A stretch of 47,517 nucleotides of DNA, taken from Candidatus Marithrix sp. Canyon 246 (GTDB taxonomy: Bacteria > Pseudomonadota > Gammaproteobacteria > Beggiatoales > Beggiatoaceae). How positions within the stretch are numbered: the stretch's first letter is position 1; every line of letters begins with the position of its first letter. Both the position numbers and the translations under genes were made by a program. Where the stretch lies: NCBI RefSeq assembly GCF_001723685.1, contig NZ_MCBX01000021.1, forward strand, positions 1-47,517, given 5' to 3'. Below, piece by piece: positions 6,836 through 18,387 of this stretch. The notes under the pieces were generated by a model. The model did not search any database, was not told the DNA's origin, and saw only the letters and a list, made by a program, of their open reading frames with translations.

Positions 6836-7900
6836 TTAATCCATATTCTGCAAAATCGCCGCTTTAACTTCTTCAAGTTGAGCTTTGATCTTAATTAAAG
6901 GAGCTGTGCTTTGACTAATTGCAGTGTCAGGATCTTTTAAACCATGCCCAGTCAGTGTACAAGTTATAACACTTCCTTCTGGAATTCTACCACTTTTTAT
7001 ATCTTTTATCGCACCTGCGATTGAAATTGCTGATGCAGGTTCACAAAAAATACCTTCTTTTTCTGCTAATAATTTTTGTGCTGCTAAAATTTCTTCATCA
7101 GAAAATTCATCAAACCAACCACCAGAATCTTGTTGAGCGGTTACTGCTTTATCCCAACTTTGTGGATTACCAATACGAATAGCAGTTGCGATAGTTTCAG
7201 GATTTTCTACTGGTTTACCACGTAAAAATGGCGCGGCACCACTGGCTTGATAACCACACATTTTCGGCTGTTTATTTGAAAATTCACTAAATCCCATCCA
7301 ATAAGCACTGATATTACCAGCATTACCCACAGGCAGGCAATGGTAATCAGGTGCTCTACCAAGTGCTTCAATAATTTCAAAAGCGGCGGTTTTTTGACCT
7401 TGTAAACGATATGGGTTAATAGAATTAACAATAGTAATAGGTGCATGATCTGCAACTTCTTTTACTAATCGCATACCATCATCAAAATTACCTTTAATTT
7501 GAAGTATAATGGCACCGTGCATCATAGCCTGCGCCAATTTACCTTGAGCAATTTTACCTTCAGGAATAAGTACAAATGAAGTAATACCGGCTCTAGCACT
7601 ATAAGCAGCGGCACTAGCAGAGGTATTACCAGTAGAGGCGCAAACGGTAGCTTTACTACCTGCTTCAACAGCCTTAGTAATAGCCATAGTCATACCACGG
7701 TCTTTAAAGGAACCGGTAGGATTTAAGCCTTCATATTTTACGTAAATATCAACATCTATCCCTAAAATTTTAGGGATATTATGAAGACGTATAAGGGGCG
7801 TATTACCTTCGGTTAAACTAATAATACGAGTATCGTCTTTTATGGGTAAATAATCACGATATTTATCAATAAGTCCAATATAACGAGAAGCTTTTAACAT
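6836..7900 (-). CDS. thrC: Threonine synthase
   Basis: Converts O-phosphohomoserine to threonine with PLP, the last step of threonine synthesis. The 354-residue protein belongs to the short fold-type II class. The PLP lysine is Lys66 in [10 protein letters not shown]; the phosphate-binding loop [13 protein letters not shown] and the [11 protein letters not shown] segment are intact. It is not next to hom or thrB here. The ATG at 7900 is followed by [19 protein letters not shown], the usual family start. Confidence 0.95.
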
Positions 7901-10008: not shown

Positions 10009-10837
10009 TTAAATGCCAGTGCCATTAAAATTTATTATGGCTGCTTTGTCAGTACCTAAAAAGGAGCCACTGTAACAACTATCTAGGATTAAAATTTGTT
10101 GTATATCAGTTGGTAACATGTCTAGCAATTGTTTTAGGTATGTGGCTGATAGTTGAGAATTGTTCATTATCAAGAAGTTGTTGGGGCTTGCATGTCCATG
10201 TAGAAAAAAGATAAATTGTTGTCCAGTTGTTAATTTAGTTGCCGCTTGCTCAAAAGCAGCTTTTAATTCTGTTTCAGGATCAAAAAAATTATAGTCTAGT
10301 AATTCATCTTCTTGATAAAGATCAAGATTAATATCCATTGCTTAATTTATATAAACTATTATTGTCAGAACCTCCAGCGGCTATTATTATGGCTTGTCCA
10401 ACACTATCTAATCGTTCTGCTGGTAAGACCATTTGAACTTTATAAGATTCGCCATTGAATCTGATCCAACCAGTTAATTCTGACCATGCTTCACCAGAAA
10501 ATTCACCAGTTTCTAAGTTAATTTTAACTTGAGAATGATCGGATTTAAACATTACCCAACCAAAATTTTGATTCCACGCATAACCAGACAAATTACCTTG
10601 CCCATCATGACTTACTTTCCAAGTGTCACCGTTTAATTGTAACCAACCAATATTTTCAGCCCAAGCATAACCTTCTAAGTGATCAGGAAATACCTGAACT
10701 TTAGCATGATTTGAATTAAAATCAATCCAACCACTATTAGTTGACCAAGCATATTTATTGTTGCTATCAATGTTATTTGCTGCTGATAATATGGTGGGTG
10801 ATATTAATAATATTAGGTATATTATGTATATTTTCAT
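10009..10837 (-). pseudogene. Decayed caspase-like (C13/C14 type) peptidase gene with WxFN repeats
   Basis: Two adjacent frames read as one broken gene. The 5' part (10837 to 10328, 169 codons) has a signal peptide (IYIIYLILLISPTILSAA), then four repeats of the form YAWS.N.GWI.FN, then SVGQAIIIAAGGSDNN, which is how the caspase-like domain begins. It stops at SNGY. The 3' part (10338 to 10009, 109 codons) resumes with DINLDLYQEDE and carries the His and Cys catalytic motifs FLHGHAS and ILDSCYSGSF, then ends abruptly. The frames overlap by 11 bases; about 25 residues expected between them are missing, and the C-terminal part after the Cys motif is absent. I infer two deletions. The separate frames could still be expressed, but not as a normal peptidase. 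Confidence 0.75.
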
Positions 10838-10867: not shown

Positions 10868-10945
10868 TTATATATCTTCATCACTCTGTAATTTAGCTGC
10901 TTCAAATAATTCATCAACACTTTTATTTAAAATTGTCTGAATCAG
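10868..10945 (-). pseudogene. Small C-terminal remnant of an unknown protein
   Basis: A 25-codon open piece ending in a stop reads LIQTILNKSVDELFEAA then KLQSDEDI; its frame is closed just upstream by TAA. It looks like the tail of a helical domain that lost its 5' part. Beside it at 10940-10975 are CAGGATTTACAGGATTTT-like direct repeats, and 10980-11004 is a 10-bp inverted repeat (GAGTTCAAAG/CTTTGAACTC). The parent gene is not recognised. Confidence 0.35.
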
Positions 10946-11029
10946 GATTTACAGGATTTTAGAATTTTCAGAATATCACGAGTTCAAAGCTTTGCTTTGA
11001 ACTCCAGTAATCAAGCTAATCAAGAAAAT

Positions 11030-11066
11030 CAAAAAAATCAAGGTACAGACAATTAGTACCTTGATT
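11030..11066 (-). terminator. Intrinsic terminator after the lectin-fold gene
   Basis: On the minus strand the arms at 11056-11066 and 11036-11046 form an 11-bp stem (AATCAAGGTAC/GTACCTTGATT) with a 9-base loop, followed by a run of seven T. It lies about 65 bases downstream of the stop at 11132 and suits that gene. Confidence 0.65.
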
Positions 11067-11131
11067 TTCTTGATTATTGCCTTATTATTAAAAATAATTT
11101 AAAAAGGGTAAAAGGGATAAAGTAAAAAGGG

Positions 11132-12430
11132 TTATAGCCTGGAGACCCGGAAGCCCACGTCGTTGCCGCGGTTCGCCGGCTTGCCCCCGTTGCGGAAAGC
11201 CGAGCGCACGTTCCTCGCGCCGTCGTTCCACGAGCCGCCGCGAAGGGACAAACTGCTATCATTATTGGCATTATTTTTGCTTAAATAAACAGCTTCTTTA
11301 CCATTATATGGATTTGCCCATTCTGAGCAAGTCCACTCCCATAAATTACCTACAGTATCATATAAACCAAATTGATTAGCTGCAAAAGACCCTACTGGTG
11401 ATGTATAATCAAAACTATCTCCACAATTAGAATTACACACGCCGTTATTTGTACCAATCTCATTACCCCACCAATATTTAGTCTCCGTACCTGCTCTAGC
11501 TGCATATTCCCACTCAGCCTCAGTAGGCAAACGATATTGTTTACCGGTTTGATTAGTTAGCCATTCTACATAAGCAGTTCCATCATTCCAACTTACACAT
11601 GTGACTGGATGATTATCATTTTGAGAAAAATTAAGATTCTGCCAATTAGCACCTTCTTGAGAACTCCATGAACCATCCTTATATACATAACAACTATTTT
11701 GCTTTTCTCCATCAGTCTTATAGCCAGTTGCATTAACAAATTTTCTAAATTCACCAACAGTAACTTCAAATTTCCCCATAGCAAACTGCCCCACAGAAAC
11801 AGAATGCACTGGTTGTTCATTACTCTCACCACCACCTTGAATGTCACCCATTCTAAAAGTACCAGCAGGGATCATAACCATATCTGGACCAGAACTACCA
11901 TCTTTCAAAGTATCACGAAAAGTAGAACCAGCAGTTGGAGTTTGAGGTTTTGGAGTATAAGTACCAACCACACCAAAAATACTAACACCAGCGCGAATAT
12001 TTTCAGGCTTTAAATTAGCATCACCTTTCACAACACCCGCCTGATAATAACCAGCGGCAATAGCCTGATCAGCCGCTTGAGGAACATAAGTCTTAGCACC
12101 ATGAACAGGCATAGTACCAGTTTGTAAACCCCAACTATCAGTTAAGCCCCAATACTTTTTACCAGCAGGAACTTCATTTGGATTAACCCCATCTGCAACT
12201 TTAGCAGGGGCTTTATCCATTAACTCATTCAAATTACAACCACTTTTCGTACCCGGAGCAGAACTTGGACCACGAAAAACCCGCTTCTCACCAGCCACCC
12301 CAGACTCCAAACGCTGACAAACATCAGGAATACTATACATAGCAGTAGAAGGATCACCCGGTGGTCCTGATGGACCAAAAGCATATGCTGCTAATGGTAA
12401 TATAGTTAGTGTTAATATTGTTGATTTCAT
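11132..12430 (-). CDS. Secreted FGE/sulfatase-modifying-factor-like protein, probable DGR target
   Basis: A 432-residue exported protein. Residues 1-17 are a signal peptide (ILTLTILPLAAYA), followed by GPSGPPGDP, a region with NIRAGVSIFGVVGTYTP as in many tail-fibre-like proteins, then at about 180-432 a formylglycine-generating-enzyme (C-type lectin) fold: MVMIPAGTFRMGD, FEVTVGEFRKFVN, HPVTCVSWNDGTAYVEWL, YRLPTEAEWEYAARAG, GLYDTVGNLWEW and RGGSWNDGARNVRSAFRNGG. True FGE enzymes have active-site cysteines in the GGSW segment; here there are none, so it should be a binding protein. The last ~37 codons change sharply to GC-rich codons. This matches variable proteins such as TvpA and TaqVP. Neighbours are a decayed caspase-like gene downstream and a toxin-antitoxin pair upstream. 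Confidence 0.85.
   Translation of the reverse strand: MKSTILTLTILPLAAYAFGPSGPPGDPSTAMYSIPDVCQRLESGVAGEKRVFRGPSSAPGTKSGCNLNELMDKAPAKVADGVNPNEVPAGKKYWGLTDSWGLQTGTMPVHGAKTYVPQAADQAIAAGYYQAGVVKGDANLKPENIRAGVSIFGVVGTYTPKPQTPTAGSTFRDTLKDGSSGPDMVMIPAGTFRMGDIQGGGESNEQPVHSVSVGQFAMGKFEVTVGEFRKFVNATGYKTDGEKQNSCYVYKDGSWSSQEGANWQNLNFSQNDNHPVTCVSWNDGTAYVEWLTNQTGKQYRLPTEAEWEYAARAGTETKYWWGNEIGTNNGVCNSNCGDSFDYTSPVGSFAANQFGLYDTVGNLWEWTCSEWANPYNGKEAVYLSKNNANNDSSLSLRGGSWNDGARNVRSAFRNGGKPANRGNDVGFRVSRL
11135..11250 (-). other. Putative DGR variable region (VR)
   Basis: By my count 79 of the 110 bases from 11141 to 11250 are G or C (72%), in a gene and neighbourhood near 35-40%. The island begins just after codons for SSLSL and ends at the stop, exactly over the ligand-binding face of the lectin fold. 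Codons such as GAC, GGC, GGG, AAC cluster at WNDG, RNGGKP and NRGND, the positions where adenine-templated AAC codons would vary. No matching template repeat, reverse transcriptase or accessory gene is in this window, so the template would have to be remote. Confidence 0.65.
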
Positions 12431-12462: not shown

Positions 12463-12948
12463 TTATTGCATTTGTTCTACTATTTTGGCATATATTGTTT
12501 TACTTAAGCGAAACCCTTGAGCTAGCAATTCATCTAAGGCTTTTTTGCCATTTTGAGGATGCCCTTGATAGTAACGAAGAAGTAATCCAACTGTACCAGT
12601 CAATCCTATATTTACTGATTCAGCTATATAACGACCATCACCATCATCAATTAATAACAGATCAGCATCAATTTCTTTCGCAAGAGCAATAGCCTCAGCT
12701 TCACCATCATCCAGTGAAATCTTTAAAAAAGTTACAAGATCACTATTGCTGACTTGACAGCAATGAATCCAATCAGCATTTTTTAGCTCTTCACTGCCAG
12801 CTCGTCCCTTACTGGCGGTGACTACTTCAGCGTAAACAGCAGGTGGAATCGCAATCTCTCCAAATAATTCTTGGAGTAAATCAAAACGATTTATTCGTGC
12901 TAAAGCAATCAACGGCGTTGAATCAGAAACTACTTTAATAGTAGTCAT
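12463..12948 (-). CDS. DUF3368 PIN-like toxin
   Basis: A 161-residue PIN-fold protein of the DUF3368 group: VVSDSTPLIAL at the start with the first acidic residue, DDGEAEAIALAKE in the middle and DLLLIDDGDGR with the later acidic residues. PIN domains are Mg-dependent RNases. Its ATG overlaps the stop of the UPF0175 gene by 4 bases (ATGA), the standard arrangement for this toxin-antitoxin type. The pair lies between ccmC and the lectin-fold gene. Confidence 0.88.
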   Translation of the reverse strand: MTTIKVVSDSTPLIALARINRFDLLQELFGEIAIPPAVYAEVVTASKGRAGSEELKNADWIHCCQVSNSDLVTFLKISLDDGEAEAIALAKEIDADLLLIDDGDGRYIAESVNIGLTGTVGLLLRYYQGHPQNGKKALDELLAQGFRLSKTIYAKIVEQMQ

Positions 12949-13217
12949 GATAATAATTTATTTAAGGTTTCTAAATCGTTTATGCTATCATCTGCGGAAT
13001 AATGAATATCGACACCACGTTCATTTAATAATTGAATCATTTCCCATTTATTAGATAGCCCAGCAAATTCTTTCGCTTTTCCAAGAGAAAGTTTGCCTTC
13101 TCGATAAAGTTCAACCGCAAGGCTTTTACGTAAGTATTCTACCCATTGTGTTTTAGGTATTTTAAGTGTCACCAAAATGGAATGGGGTATTTCCAAATTT
13201 AATTTTGTTTGTTGCAT
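12945..13217 (-). CDS. UPF0175 family antitoxin
   Basis: A 90-residue protein with the UPF0175 pattern: AVELYREGKLSLGKAKEFAGLSNKWEM, a helix-turn-helix-like core, and the tail DIHYSADDSINDLETLN. These small proteins are the usual partner of DUF3368 PIN proteins and probably bind DNA and neutralise the toxin. It is the first gene of the pair and overlaps the toxin start by 4 bases. Confidence 0.88.
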   Translation of the reverse strand: MQQTKLNLEIPHSILVTLKIPKTQWVEYLRKSLAVELYREGKLSLGKAKEFAGLSNKWEMIQLLNERGVDIHYSADDSINDLETLNKLLS

Positions 13218-14055: not shown

Positions 14056-15738
14056 TTAATCCACTCGCCAAGTTTTAACCGCTTGTTTTGCCAGCCAAGT
14101 TTGGTAATGGTATAGCGTGCCTAAATCCCAACTATCATATTCAGCTACTTTTTTTGCCAAATTAAAATTCGTCTCTAAGTAAGCTGATTTTTTAGTGGCA
14201 AAATCAGCTCGTTTTAATTCATCTTTTTCCAGTAACACCATATTACCAAGGCGATCTGAAATATCAAAAATACCTTCGCCAAAGTGTTTATGCCATTCTT
14301 GTTCTGGATTGTATGGACAAATATGTTCTAATCTGACATCTAAATAATTTAATGATCTGCCAAAATTGTTCTCTATTTCTACCAATAAAAATCGCAGTTT
14401 TTTCGATGATTGCCTGCTTGGTAATTTAAAATATTCAAAGGCACTTTTAAATGTATTGTCATCAGGATACAAACTTTTAAATTCATCACAATTTTTTATG
14501 TGACTTGCCCTAGTATAAGTACGGTCAAATACTTTCATTGCAATTTTATTGTAAGCATTATCCTGTTCATTCGGTGAAAACCGGCAAACCACATTATAGC
14601 GAATAGATAAAATATAAAGATACTTCAATAGCTTAATGAGTTCTTGGTCTGCAAACTTACGATAAATTGCTGCCATTAACATAGAAAAGGGTTGTTTTAT
14701 CTTAAATAATTTAAAGCCTTCCAAATAATGTATGATCTTCTCTTTTTCATTACTATAAGTGTTCCACCACTCATCATGTGGCTTCAAAAGTGCAGCATAA
14801 ACTGGCGCATAATCTCCCAGAGATTTTAAATAATGACTAGCATCTATTGGTTTTGTGACAATTTGTTGTATTGACTTAAAAAGTCCTCTTTTTGATACCA
14901 GTGGCTTTTGTATATTATGATGGTAACTTATGAAATCCGTAAAATTATTTTCACCTAGTTGGCTAATGATTACAGACCAGTCTTCATCCAGCTTATTTAA
15001 ATGATTATCTGTTACATCATCATTCTGGGTTAATGTTGAAAAAATATGATTTTTTAATAAATCTGGAGTTGATAGTTGAATGCCTCTTGCATTCAGAGTT
15101 TCAAATATTTTATAGGCGTTAATACTGTCTTGAGTGATTATTTTTGTGAAAAATATTTTATCTGCTAATTTTTCTATGAATATAGCCAATTCTGTCGCAT
15201 TTTTGCTTGTAAATTTACTCACAAAAAAATCAAAAGCAGTATTCAGCAGTACATTGGTTTTACTTAATCCTATCTCTTTTAAGGTTTCTAAATTCGATGC
15301 TATCTTACTAAAATGTCGATGATTATTTCTATTCAGTGATAGTTTGTTTTCTACTATTAAGGTAATTGCACTTTTTGTTCCTAAGAAACGGTCACTCCAT
15401 ACTGCTAACCTCTGCCTATTTTTTTCTTTATCAATACCATCATTTATGAAATATTGTATTATTCTCATTACAGCAATAACAATTAAAGACAATGTTATCA
15501 GTCGTTGCTGCCCATCAATAATCTCAAATTCGTGTTCACCTGTCTTTAGCAACACGATATAGCCCATATAGTGAGAATCTTCTTTATCAAGTGCTTGGAT
15601 ATCAATCCATAAATCTTCCCACTGTTCCTGATCCCATGCATAATCACGCTGAAAACGAGGAACTTTGTATTTAGTGCCGTTACTAAAAAGTTCAGCAAAT
15701 GTCTGGTTGGATGGTGGCATTAACATAAAATTGCTCAT
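14056..15738 (-). CDS. DUF262/DUF1524 (GmrSD-type) protein
   Basis: A 560-residue protein. The N-terminal DUF262 part has YKVPRFQRDYAW (about residue 23) and EIIDGQQRLITLSLI (about 74), the DGQQR motif linked to nucleotide-driven activity. The C-terminal DUF1524 part has LEHICPYNPEQEW (about 468) followed by RLGNMVLLE, the His-centred nuclease motif. The same pair of domains makes the type IV enzyme GmrSD and the antiphage protein BrxU. AGGAAACC precedes the ATG at 15738. It begins 15 bases after the helicase gene and must be its operon partner. A defence role is likely; the target is unknown. Confidence 0.85.
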   Translation of the reverse strand: MSNFMLMPPSNQTFAELFSNGTKYKVPRFQRDYAWDQEQWEDLWIDIQALDKEDSHYMGYIVLLKTGEHEFEIIDGQQRLITLSLIVIAVMRIIQYFINDGIDKEKNRQRLAVWSDRFLGTKSAITLIVENKLSLNRNNHRHFSKIASNLETLKEIGLSKTNVLLNTAFDFFVSKFTSKNATELAIFIEKLADKIFFTKIITQDSINAYKIFETLNARGIQLSTPDLLKNHIFSTLTQNDDVTDNHLNKLDEDWSVIISQLGENNFTDFISYHHNIQKPLVSKRGLFKSIQQIVTKPIDASHYLKSLGDYAPVYAALLKPHDEWWNTYSNEKEKIIHYLEGFKLFKIKQPFSMLMAAIYRKFADQELIKLLKYLYILSIRYNVVCRFSPNEQDNAYNKIAMKVFDRTYTRASHIKNCDEFKSLYPDDNTFKSAFEYFKLPSRQSSKKLRFLLVEIENNFGRSLNYLDVRLEHICPYNPEQEWHKHFGEGIFDISDRLGNMVLLEKDELKRADFATKKSAYLETNFNLAKKVAEYDSWDLGTLYHYQTWLAKQAVKTWRVD

Positions 15739-15753
15739 GATATGGTTTCCTTT

Positions 15754-18387
15754 TTAATTAACAAACACATCCACCACTTTTTCATCTAAGCTAATTATAT
15801 ATTTAGTTGTAGATTTAGTATAAATATTGATACTTTGATGGCGTAAAATCTCTGTATTTTGTTCAATATAATTTGCTTGCTTAAATAAAATTTGTTCTAT
15901 TTCCGCCGCTTTAAATTTTTGAGTATTAGCTTTAATTTGTTTATCTTCTAATGTTGTCTCTAGTCGTTTTATCTGTTCTATTCCCTCAATATCTGGTATC
16001 AACAAAATTAGATAATCCTTAGCGCGGCTAATAGCAACATTTAAAATATGTTGCTTATTCAAAATTATGTTTTTGCTTATGGTTTTTGGAGGATTAAATA
16101 CGCTTAAAATAATATCAAATTCATCTCCTTGAAATTTATGGATAGTTCCTATCAATATCGTTATATTTTCATTAATATCATATTGCGCATTAATCATCTT
16201 TTCTATTAAATTTGCTTGGGCTAAATATGGACAAATTATTCCAATTTTCCATTTCGCTTTTTGCTTTTTACATTCTGCAACTAGAGACAAAGTTAATTCT
16301 AAACACAGTAAAGCGGAATAAATATGATAAGTACTATTTTTATTTAAACTATGCGGCTTATATAACTGATGTTTCTTTTTGATTGGAAATTTTATGACGC
16401 TGATTTCAGTTAAATTCACGCCATTAAACTTTAATGGTTTTTGAGACGCTGCTTGTCGATGATGGCTGATTAATCCATTATAACTAAATTTACTAAACAA
16501 GCTACCAATAGCAGGAAGGCTGCGATATTGTCGCATTAATGAAGTTTTGTTAGATTTAAATTTTTTTAATTTTAAAAAGCTATAAATATTTTCATCCTGC
16601 CACTCCTTGGCTAAAACTACAGGCGGAATTTGAAATGGATCACCAGCAATTATAAATTTACTAGGTTTATATAACACATAAATAATTTGCGCTAACATTA
16701 TCATTGAAGCCTCATCAAATATAACAATATCCCAATGATAATCCAAGCTATGATCATATAAAAATTTAGCAATTGTAGTAACAACAATAGATGATTTACT
16801 AGAATCATACTTCTTAGCTTTAACTGCCTCAATTTCTGTATCTGAACTTATACCAATACGAATTAGCTTTTTACTTATTTTATTACTAGCAAACTCTATA
16901 GTTTTTTTAACTAACAAATCTGCCGCTTTATTGGTAGGAGTCAAAACTAAAATTTTTTTATTCTGCTCAGCTAAAGGAATGATTTTTTCTTTAACTAAAA
17001 ACGTTGTTTTACCAGTTCCCGGTGGACCATAAATAAACTCAATATCAGAATAAAAAGTTTCTTGTAAGTTATCTTGACTATTTAATTGTTGAAAAGCAAT
17101 TTTTAATGATTCCCAGATAAAACTTTTATCAAGTAAATTTTCCAAATTCAATAAATCATTAAACCATGCAACACTATATTTCTCAGTTACAGCAATACGA
17201 GATTGAAGTGTTTCAATTTGAGATTGTTTTGCTATTCTTTCTGTAAATTGCTTTTCTAAAAGTACTAGTTTACTACTTTTAGCACTAGCAATTTTTAACT
17301 TCTCAATTAAAATTTTGGCAGCATAACTATTTGTGTTATAACTAGAATTTAAGTCTGCTAATTTAATATCATTAGCTTTCAAACACTGCAAATCTTGATT
17401 ATAAAGCCATTCCGTATCGCGTAAACTGATTAAAAATTTAGCATCAAAATAATAATATTTGTTATCGCGATAAAACCAATTATATTGCCCTTTAAAAATT
17501 TCCTTACCTTTTGCTGCTACAATTTTATTTAATAATAATTGCCATAATAATTTAGACTTATCAAAATTCATTGTCGCTAAAAAATTATTTAATCCTTCTA
17601 AATCATAATCATAACTATATTCAATCAAATGAGAATAATCATTGCTGCAATATCCTTGATGAATATCATGTCTTTCCAGTGCTGATAATTCTGTTTTTAT
17701 TTTAATCCGTCGAGGTAAGTCAGAAATGCCTAAACCCTTGAAAAAGTTCTTTAAAATATTTTTACCATATAAATTGAAAAAGGCAGAATAAAACTTATCG
17801 TTTAAAAAATAAACACTTGGATAATCCTGAAAATAATGAGTTAAACTATTGCAATAAATCTCGCTTGCTAACAATAATTTATCTGCATAACAAAAAGGAT
17901 ATTTTTGTAATTGTTGTAGATAACTAAATTTTTGTTGCGGTGATGAAAGACTTAAAAAAGATTGCAAAATTTTTTCAAAATCATTAAAAATAACAGCCTC
18001 TGATATATCCTGTTCTGTTTTATATTTAGGCAATATATAATATTGAATTTCATCATGTTCTTGTGGAGTAGTCAAACCTAAGTCCTTTAAAAAGTGTAAA
18101 GTTTTTTTATCTTGTATAAAACAATCTTTAATTGTCGGATATTCTAAATCATTGTTATTAGGTAAATATGCTTGTATATGACCAAGGCGATTATAAAAAG
18201 AGACTATTTCATTAGTAGTTAAACGTAAAATTGGTTTAGTTTTCAATAAAAAAACAATTTTAGTATTAGATAAATAATTCTCATTTAATATATAAATATA
18301 AAATCTTATTAACCAGTCATCAGTCTGATCCTCAATCCAAGTCCTATTAATACCGCGCAAAAAATTCTCAAAACTTCTATTAATCAT
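15754..18387 (-). CDS. Superfamily 1 (Upf1/Dna2-like) helicase with long N-terminal extension
   Basis: An 877-residue protein. Residues from about 450 are a full superfamily 1 motor: [15 protein letters not shown] (Walker A), LVLTPTNKAADLL, DIVIFDEASMIMLAQI (Walker B), IAGDPFQIPP, MRQYRSLPAIGSLFS, IGTIHKFQGDEFDI and LNVAISRAKDYLIL. The first ~440 residues are rich in Tyr, Phe and Lys with no domain I recognise. It is the first gene of a two-gene unit with the DUF262/DUF1524 protein. A divergent promoter region separates it from groES. The motor assignment is firm; the cellular role is not known. Confidence 0.88.
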   Translation of the reverse strand: MINRSFENFLRGINRTWIEDQTDDWLIRFYIYILNENYLSNTKIVFLLKTKPILRLTTNEIVSFYNRLGHIQAYLPNNNDLEYPTIKDCFIQDKKTLHFLKDLGLTTPQEHDEIQYYILPKYKTEQDISEAVIFNDFEKILQSFLSLSSPQQKFSYLQQLQKYPFCYADKLLLASEIYCNSLTHYFQDYPSVYFLNDKFYSAFFNLYGKNILKNFFKGLGISDLPRRIKIKTELSALERHDIHQGYCSNDYSHLIEYSYDYDLEGLNNFLATMNFDKSKLLWQLLLNKIVAAKGKEIFKGQYNWFYRDNKYYYFDAKFLISLRDTEWLYNQDLQCLKANDIKLADLNSSYNTNSYAAKILIEKLKIASAKSSKLVLLEKQFTERIAKQSQIETLQSRIAVTEKYSVAWFNDLLNLENLLDKSFIWESLKIAFQQLNSQDNLQETFYSDIEFIYGPPGTGKTTFLVKEKIIPLAEQNKKILVLTPTNKAADLLVKKTIEFASNKISKKLIRIGISSDTEIEAVKAKKYDSSKSSIVVTTIAKFLYDHSLDYHWDIVIFDEASMIMLAQIIYVLYKPSKFIIAGDPFQIPPVVLAKEWQDENIYSFLKLKKFKSNKTSLMRQYRSLPAIGSLFSKFSYNGLISHHRQAASQKPLKFNGVNLTEISVIKFPIKKKHQLYKPHSLNKNSTYHIYSALLCLELTLSLVAECKKQKAKWKIGIICPYLAQANLIEKMINAQYDINENITILIGTIHKFQGDEFDIILSVFNPPKTISKNIILNKQHILNVAISRAKDYLILLIPDIEGIEQIKRLETTLEDKQIKANTQKFKAAEIEQILFKQANYIEQNTEILRHQSINIYTKSTTKYIISLDEKVVDVFVN

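Follow-up and report, generated by a model that had tools for sequence, protein, structure and literature searches.

How diversity-generating retroelements (DGRs) find remote targets is an open question, and the cis signal described so far is a hairpin beside the variable repeat (VR). A hairpin or cruciform 3′ of the VR is a feature of many DGRs, though not of all. The DGR of Bordetella phage BPP-1 (PMC3240598, PMC12875486) resembles the system reported here in its reverse transcriptase (RT), its Avd protein, its template repeat (TR) with spacer RNA, its adenine mutagenesis and the 3′-terminal position of the VR in the target gene. However, BPP-1 targets require inverted repeats 3′ of the VR, as a hairpin or cruciform, whereas a linear conserved element is found here, and the BPP-1 avd, TR and RT run in one direction, whereas our TR lies on the strand opposite avd and RT. 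Hairpins of that kind are retained by archaeal DGRs (PMC4372165).

Remote, multi-gene DGRs are already known. Those of cyanobacteria (PMC7517822) are alike in having genome-wide targets with lectin-fold C-termini and, in some variable proteins, orthocaspase domains at the N-terminus, but the accessible sections of that survey only suppose conserved cis features, with no sequence described, and the present host is gammaproteobacterial. Thiohalocapsa PB-PSB1 (PMC10907252), itself a gammaproteobacterium, likewise has many targets, for which diversification in trans was considered, as well as degenerate loci and repeats that replaced DGR parts; it carries nine DGR loci, whose 15 targets fall into four classes, whereas one DGR-type RT and one TR were found here, with seven targets. 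Treponema denticola (PMC4891356) also diversifies an FGE-like lectin, TvpA, and has remote targets; some of its isolates carry targets without RT or TR, which parallels the relative G001 described below.

In this work, we focus on a window of 47,517 nucleotides (the whole stretch of DNA analysed; contig NZ_MCBX01000021.1 of Candidatus Marithrix sp. Canyon 246, here C17 of genome G000). The assembly is a 44-contig draft of 3.24 Mb, 98% complete with 3.8% estimated contamination. From sequence comparison, a GC-rich island in this window is almost certainly a VR, in a gene that a chromosomal DGR has targeted remotely. Such a target is known in kind; the new part is an element shared by the targets directly behind their VRs, of which a search of the open-access literature returned no description.

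The window gene and its GC-rich island

The target gene, on the minus strand (11132–12430), encodes 432 aa. Its product comprises an N-terminal signal-like stretch, recognised by eye, a middle region, and a C-terminal FGE/C-type-lectin-like domain. The fold proposed by the first-pass annotation was borne out by a profile search (PF03781 at residues 181–429, E 8e-64) and by a distant sequence similarity to TvpA (structure 2y3c, E 3e-10). An AlphaFold model of the domain (eight paralogs) was poor, with a mean pLDDT of 56 and values mostly below 50 in the VR region.

Our count reproduced the annotated 79 G or C among the 110 bases of positions 11141–11250, with 28% and 33% GC in the flanking 110-bp windows (11035–11144 and 11255–11364). 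As for the annotated extent (11135–11250), the island stood but its edges shifted by a few bases, the exact VR covering 115 bp (11139–11253, minus strand) when aligned to the template on contig C20. The VR thus lies in the C-terminal part of the FGE-like domain; it has 70% GC and a GC3 of 0.95, against 36% and 0.21 for the part of the gene upstream of it (up to 540 nt). No Rfam match was obtained at gathering scores in the window gene or the TR locus.

The surroundings of the gene include two overlapping ORFs at 10009–10837 (minus strand), which may together represent a split caspase-like gene. One of them matches peptidase C13 weakly (E 0.001, below cut-off) and contains LDSCYSG; the other contains repeats and matches nothing in Pfam. 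Also on the minus strand are a PIN/DUF3368 and UPF0175 pair resembling a toxin-antitoxin module (12463–13217), and a GmrSD-type protein adjoining an AAA helicase, possibly defence genes (14056–18387).

One template for seven dispersed genes

The first-pass annotation had proposed, as a check, a genome search for a near-identical copy differing where it has A and for a DGR-type RT; both were found on contig C20. With the island as DNA query, 11 places in G000 matched at E <1e-6, the window included. One of them, C20:9438–9552 (plus strand), is the TR: of 99 changed cells in the VRs, 92 fall on an A of this copy. Between the window VR and this TR, 12 of 28 template adenines are changed and none of the 87 other bases (Fisher p = 4.9e-9), as expected of the DGR variable region that had been claimed. 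Chance does not account for the island, given that the genome itself contains a template and that its adenines are where the differences lie.

Seven VRs, on seven contigs, are clean: C17 (the window), C20, C34, C43, C3, C30 and C11. Pooled, they are changed at 92 of 196 template adenines versus 7 of 609 other bases (Fisher p = 2.5e-56), the seven non-A changes being unaccounted for by the DGR rule. All 28 template adenines occupy codon positions 1 or 2. The changes at these sites in the seven VRs are skewed (50 to G, 36 to T and only 6 to C, with A kept in 104). Apart from the TR, the places left uncounted are a decayed VR on C25 (9/28 A and 19/88 non-A changed), a weakly similar place on C22, and C6, where the likeness to the template is restricted to the 3′ half. 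The latter locus (G000:C6:28254–28330, L018) is a broken FGE gene followed by the element with four mismatches, and may stem from partial homing or from a deletion.

The bodies of the seven genes are diverged, with a mean identity over 21 pairs of 0.77 (0.66 at fourfold sites) and a GC3 of about 0.2. In contrast, the non-A sites of their VRs are 0.98 identical (fourfold 0.97) with a GC3 of about 0.95, while identity at template-A sites is 0.40. Copying from one template, but not shared descent, explains such homogenised VRs in diverged genes. The island is template codon usage pasted into AT-rich genes, and one template is common to the window gene and at least six further scattered genes.

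With regard to their N-terminal parts, the clean targets on C34 and C30 are fusions of a caspase (PF00656) with the FGE domain, as is the decayed one on C25, and C11 has a separate caspase ORF upstream of its target gene; those of C17, C20, C3 and C43 are of other kinds. Several target genes begin in a lipoprotein-like manner, as judged by eye.

Reverse transcriptase, Avd and the state of the cassette

The RT gene (C20:7753–8649) lies on the strand opposite to the TR, about 0.8 kb from it. Its product scores above the PF00078 cut-off, carries a YVDD motif as well as IGNLTSQ, which we take to mark DGR-type RTs, and is related to RTs found beside TRs in other genomes; the nearest among named contigs belongs to Candidatus Parabeggiatoa (56%). 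Against NCBIfam, it reached no DGR-specific model, the best being TIGR04416 with 137.7 bits for a cut-off of 300. The avd gene precedes it on the same strand (PF22296, 44.7 bits, cut-off 40); NF033474 gave 77.6 bits for Avd, just below the curated cut-off of 80. Between avd and the TR, on the TR strand, is a gene for a 112-residue MutS domain I protein (PF01624), a family listed as a DGR accessory (PMC10053308). PADLOC assigned the RT to general or defence RT models only, and returned nothing for Avd or the MutS-like protein. The remaining RT matches in G000 are five in frames of 493–645 aa and fragments on C44 and C23; by their length we take these other RTs for group II introns, which leaves the one on C20 as the sole RT of DGR type seen. 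None was found on the contig of the window, so that the target is remote, as proposed.

In G024, G006, G016 and G011, RT and TR share a strand, with the TR coming second, whereas in G000 the TR is inverted and lies beyond avd, its spacer having moved along. Over six TRs, the flanks can form a 10-bp helix (58 of 60 cells paired, with both partners altered in three pairs), whose strands were picked by eye and whose shuffle control is weak (1–57% of 300 shuffles reach the observed pairs), so that the compensating changes alone count as evidence. Judged by these flanks, the TR still resembles a functional RNA despite its relocation.

In G000, 292 nt separate avd from the RT core, versus 428–456 nt in the four closest relatives (136–164 nt shorter). 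The open frame of the RT is also short, at 301 aa (five relatives have 338–378 aa), and a GGW stretch conserved at the C-terminus of Avd is missing. These comparisons indicate a deletion across the avd–RT junction that removed the end of Avd and the start of the RT. Together with the inverted and moved TR, it makes present activity doubtful; service in trans, as put forward by the first-pass annotation, is therefore demonstrated for the past but not for the present, with both proteins shortened.

A dispersed repeat may have helped the rearrangement. It has 35 matches in G000, and occurs behind the RT gene, before the C20 target gene and adjoining the window gene, where a copy at 10929–10990 (plus strand) shares 90% identity with C20:7640–7701, just behind the RT. 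Its extents at these places are 10925–11090 in the window, and 7640–7701 and 11134–11244 on C20. DGR cassettes with inversion and multiple VRs are known (PMC3521204, PMC6642488).

A conserved element behind the VRs

In the window, the VR is followed by the element TAACCCTTTTTACTTTATCCCTTTTAC (11108–11134, minus strand), located by pattern match, whose first three bases are the stop codon and whose likeness to other targets extends about 10 bases further. The corresponding 27-bp pattern, TAACCCTTTNNNNTTTATCNNTTTTAC, is pyrimidine-rich. The sequence TAACCNTTTNNNNTTTATC has seven exact matches in G000, one directly behind each clean VR; up to one mismatch, there are 13 matches (six added) versus 9 for the reversed control. 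The TAA of the element is the stop codon in four targets, but C34, C11 and C3 read it in a different frame, which indicates conservation as DNA or RNA.

The family survey covered 42 genomes of 25 genera. The family is probably Beggiatoaceae, in line with the nearest named RT and with PMC11172852, which likewise counts 25 genera in Beggiatoaceae. At no more than one mismatch, TAACCCTTTNNNNTTTATCNNTTTTAC has 29 matches in it, and all 29 are behind VR-like lectin ends, 27 after a TR-like VR and two after the end of a lectin domain. The gap between VR end and element is 4–5 nt in nearly all strong cases. C43 of G000 matches only at three mismatches; at this tolerance, the pattern marks the seven VRs of G000 and one unrelated place, and among its 24 FGE matches only the seven clean VRs carry it. 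Family-wide, the scan at up to three mismatches is noisy (120 matches versus 59 for the reversed pattern). None of the 11 TRs, classed as such by their place beside an RT, carries TAACCCTTTNNNNTTTATCNNTTTTAC, at least 10 positions being different.

Beyond the family, in a class sample of 369 genomes, four of them within the family, no outside match was obtained at up to one mismatch, and two genomes, G238 and G227, had one at two mismatches. That of G238 adjoins a lectin-domain end, whereas that of G227 does not, and the putative tag discussed below may accordingly reach beyond the family. With the G024 RT as query, no match was found in either genome, in a search that had no positive control. 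The G238 locus (L218, G238:C148, 546–2009, plus strand), which belongs to another family, has an FGE-like end of 69% GC in a locus of 48%. At exactly two mismatches, 10 of 19 sites (17 family, 2 outside) are behind VR-like ends and 9 are not.

For a set that is not circular, the 62 TR-like matches were reduced to 46 at E ≤1e-9 and, after removal of nine TRs and one unframeable match, to 36 VRs chosen without regard to the element. Of these, 23 have the element at up to one mismatch, 28 at up to three, and eight have none. A positional profile is circular inside the element, its rows having been picked by it, and was left out of the evidence. For the 285 pairs that join genus g1 with genera g17/g18, post-VR positions 1–45 are 0.62 identical, versus 0.32 at fourfold sites and 0.19 at positions 46–80; between g17 and g18 (84 pairs), the values are 0.71, 0.35 and 0.42. 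In the 105 pairs within g1, positions 1–45 do not exceed fourfold sites (0.57 for both), and the value beyond is 0.16.

As for a hairpin, the scan was for perfect stems of at least 7 bp that start no further than 45 nt from the VR. Behind the seven clean VRs, none with G or C was found, and the only such stem, at C11, is made of A and T. Of all 41 VR-like ends covered, four have such a stem, two of them purely A/T. Longer perfect stems were found further out in six of the seven clean VRs, so that a distant hairpin is still conceivable. The element occupies the site where other DGR targets have the hairpin, and we infer a role in targeting. H-DNA, DnaA-box and IHF-site readings of it were dropped after weighing by eye.

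The relatives differ in what they have kept. In G001, of the same genus, there are six TR-like matches, of which four carry the element (up to three mismatches); no DGR-like RT was found in it, its two RT matches being 28–31% identical in frames of 613–631 aa. G017 has a larger repertoire than G000, with 16 TR-like matches (E ≤1e-5; L209–L212, L216, L217 and others), most with the element.

Mechanism and competing explanations

According to the mechanism that we favour, RNA from the single C20 TR underwent reverse transcription that was error-prone at adenines. By mutagenic retrohoming, in trans for six of the seven, the resulting cDNA replaced the 3′-terminal part of FGE/C-type-lectin genes, at least seven in number and spread over seven contigs. 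Every round pastes the GC-rich template over an AT-rich gene, producing a GC island with template codon usage. The diversified residues would form a binding surface. The post-VR element would help to pick targets, replacing the hairpin or cruciform. A process with no reverse transcription involved, either ordinary gene conversion between paralogs or the transfer of a cassette rich in GC, would suit the paralogy of the VR genes and a GC-rich island in an AT-rich gene; it neither restricts differences to the adenines of one non-coding copy nor explains why these stand at codon positions 1 and 2 only, and its probability is negligible. A different matter is whether retrohoming continues, since the DGR seems to have acted recently and, because the deletion spans the avd–RT junction, is probably impaired now. 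That this deletion left the DGR dead and the genes with a frozen set of lectin variants differs from the favoured mechanism in the present state only, and we regard it as slightly more likely than not: the shortened RT and Avd speak for it, as do the TR-like VRs of G001, a genome in which no DGR-like RT was found, but the rarity of non-A changes would make any stop recent, the relocated TR retains its flanking helix, a shortened RT could be made from a GTG start, and an assembly error at the junction is possible.

Known Rho sites are C-rich and G-poor. So is the element, whose start coincides with the stop codon or slightly precedes it, and which might therefore serve the target mRNA, through 3′-UTR stability or Rho-dependent termination, instead of retrohoming. 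In line with this, no link of its integrity to VR upkeep was seen in 15 VRs of G017 and G031 (Spearman −0.01); the values are 0.66 for six VRs of G032 (p 0.16) and 0.60 for ten of G000 (p 0.065), and given these values we claim no link. Yet the other FGE genes of G000 lack the element, and its distance from the VR end is fixed in nearly all strong cases; we consider a role in the mRNA rather unlikely. Rather less doubtful, but still tentative, is the reading of the element as a sequence-specific target tag of a gammaproteobacterial DGR group, which would replace the hairpin or cruciform and open any lectin gene carrying it to one template.

Significance

The abrupt jump in GC3 at the end of the window gene illustrates how a pasted template can be revealed in raw sequence, and the case adds caspase-lectin proteins with a diversified lectin end. 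The post-VR element is a concrete candidate for targeting, as the 27-bp pattern alone pointed to DGR-like targets. If the target-tag reading is true, it would explain how one DGR serves many scattered genes.
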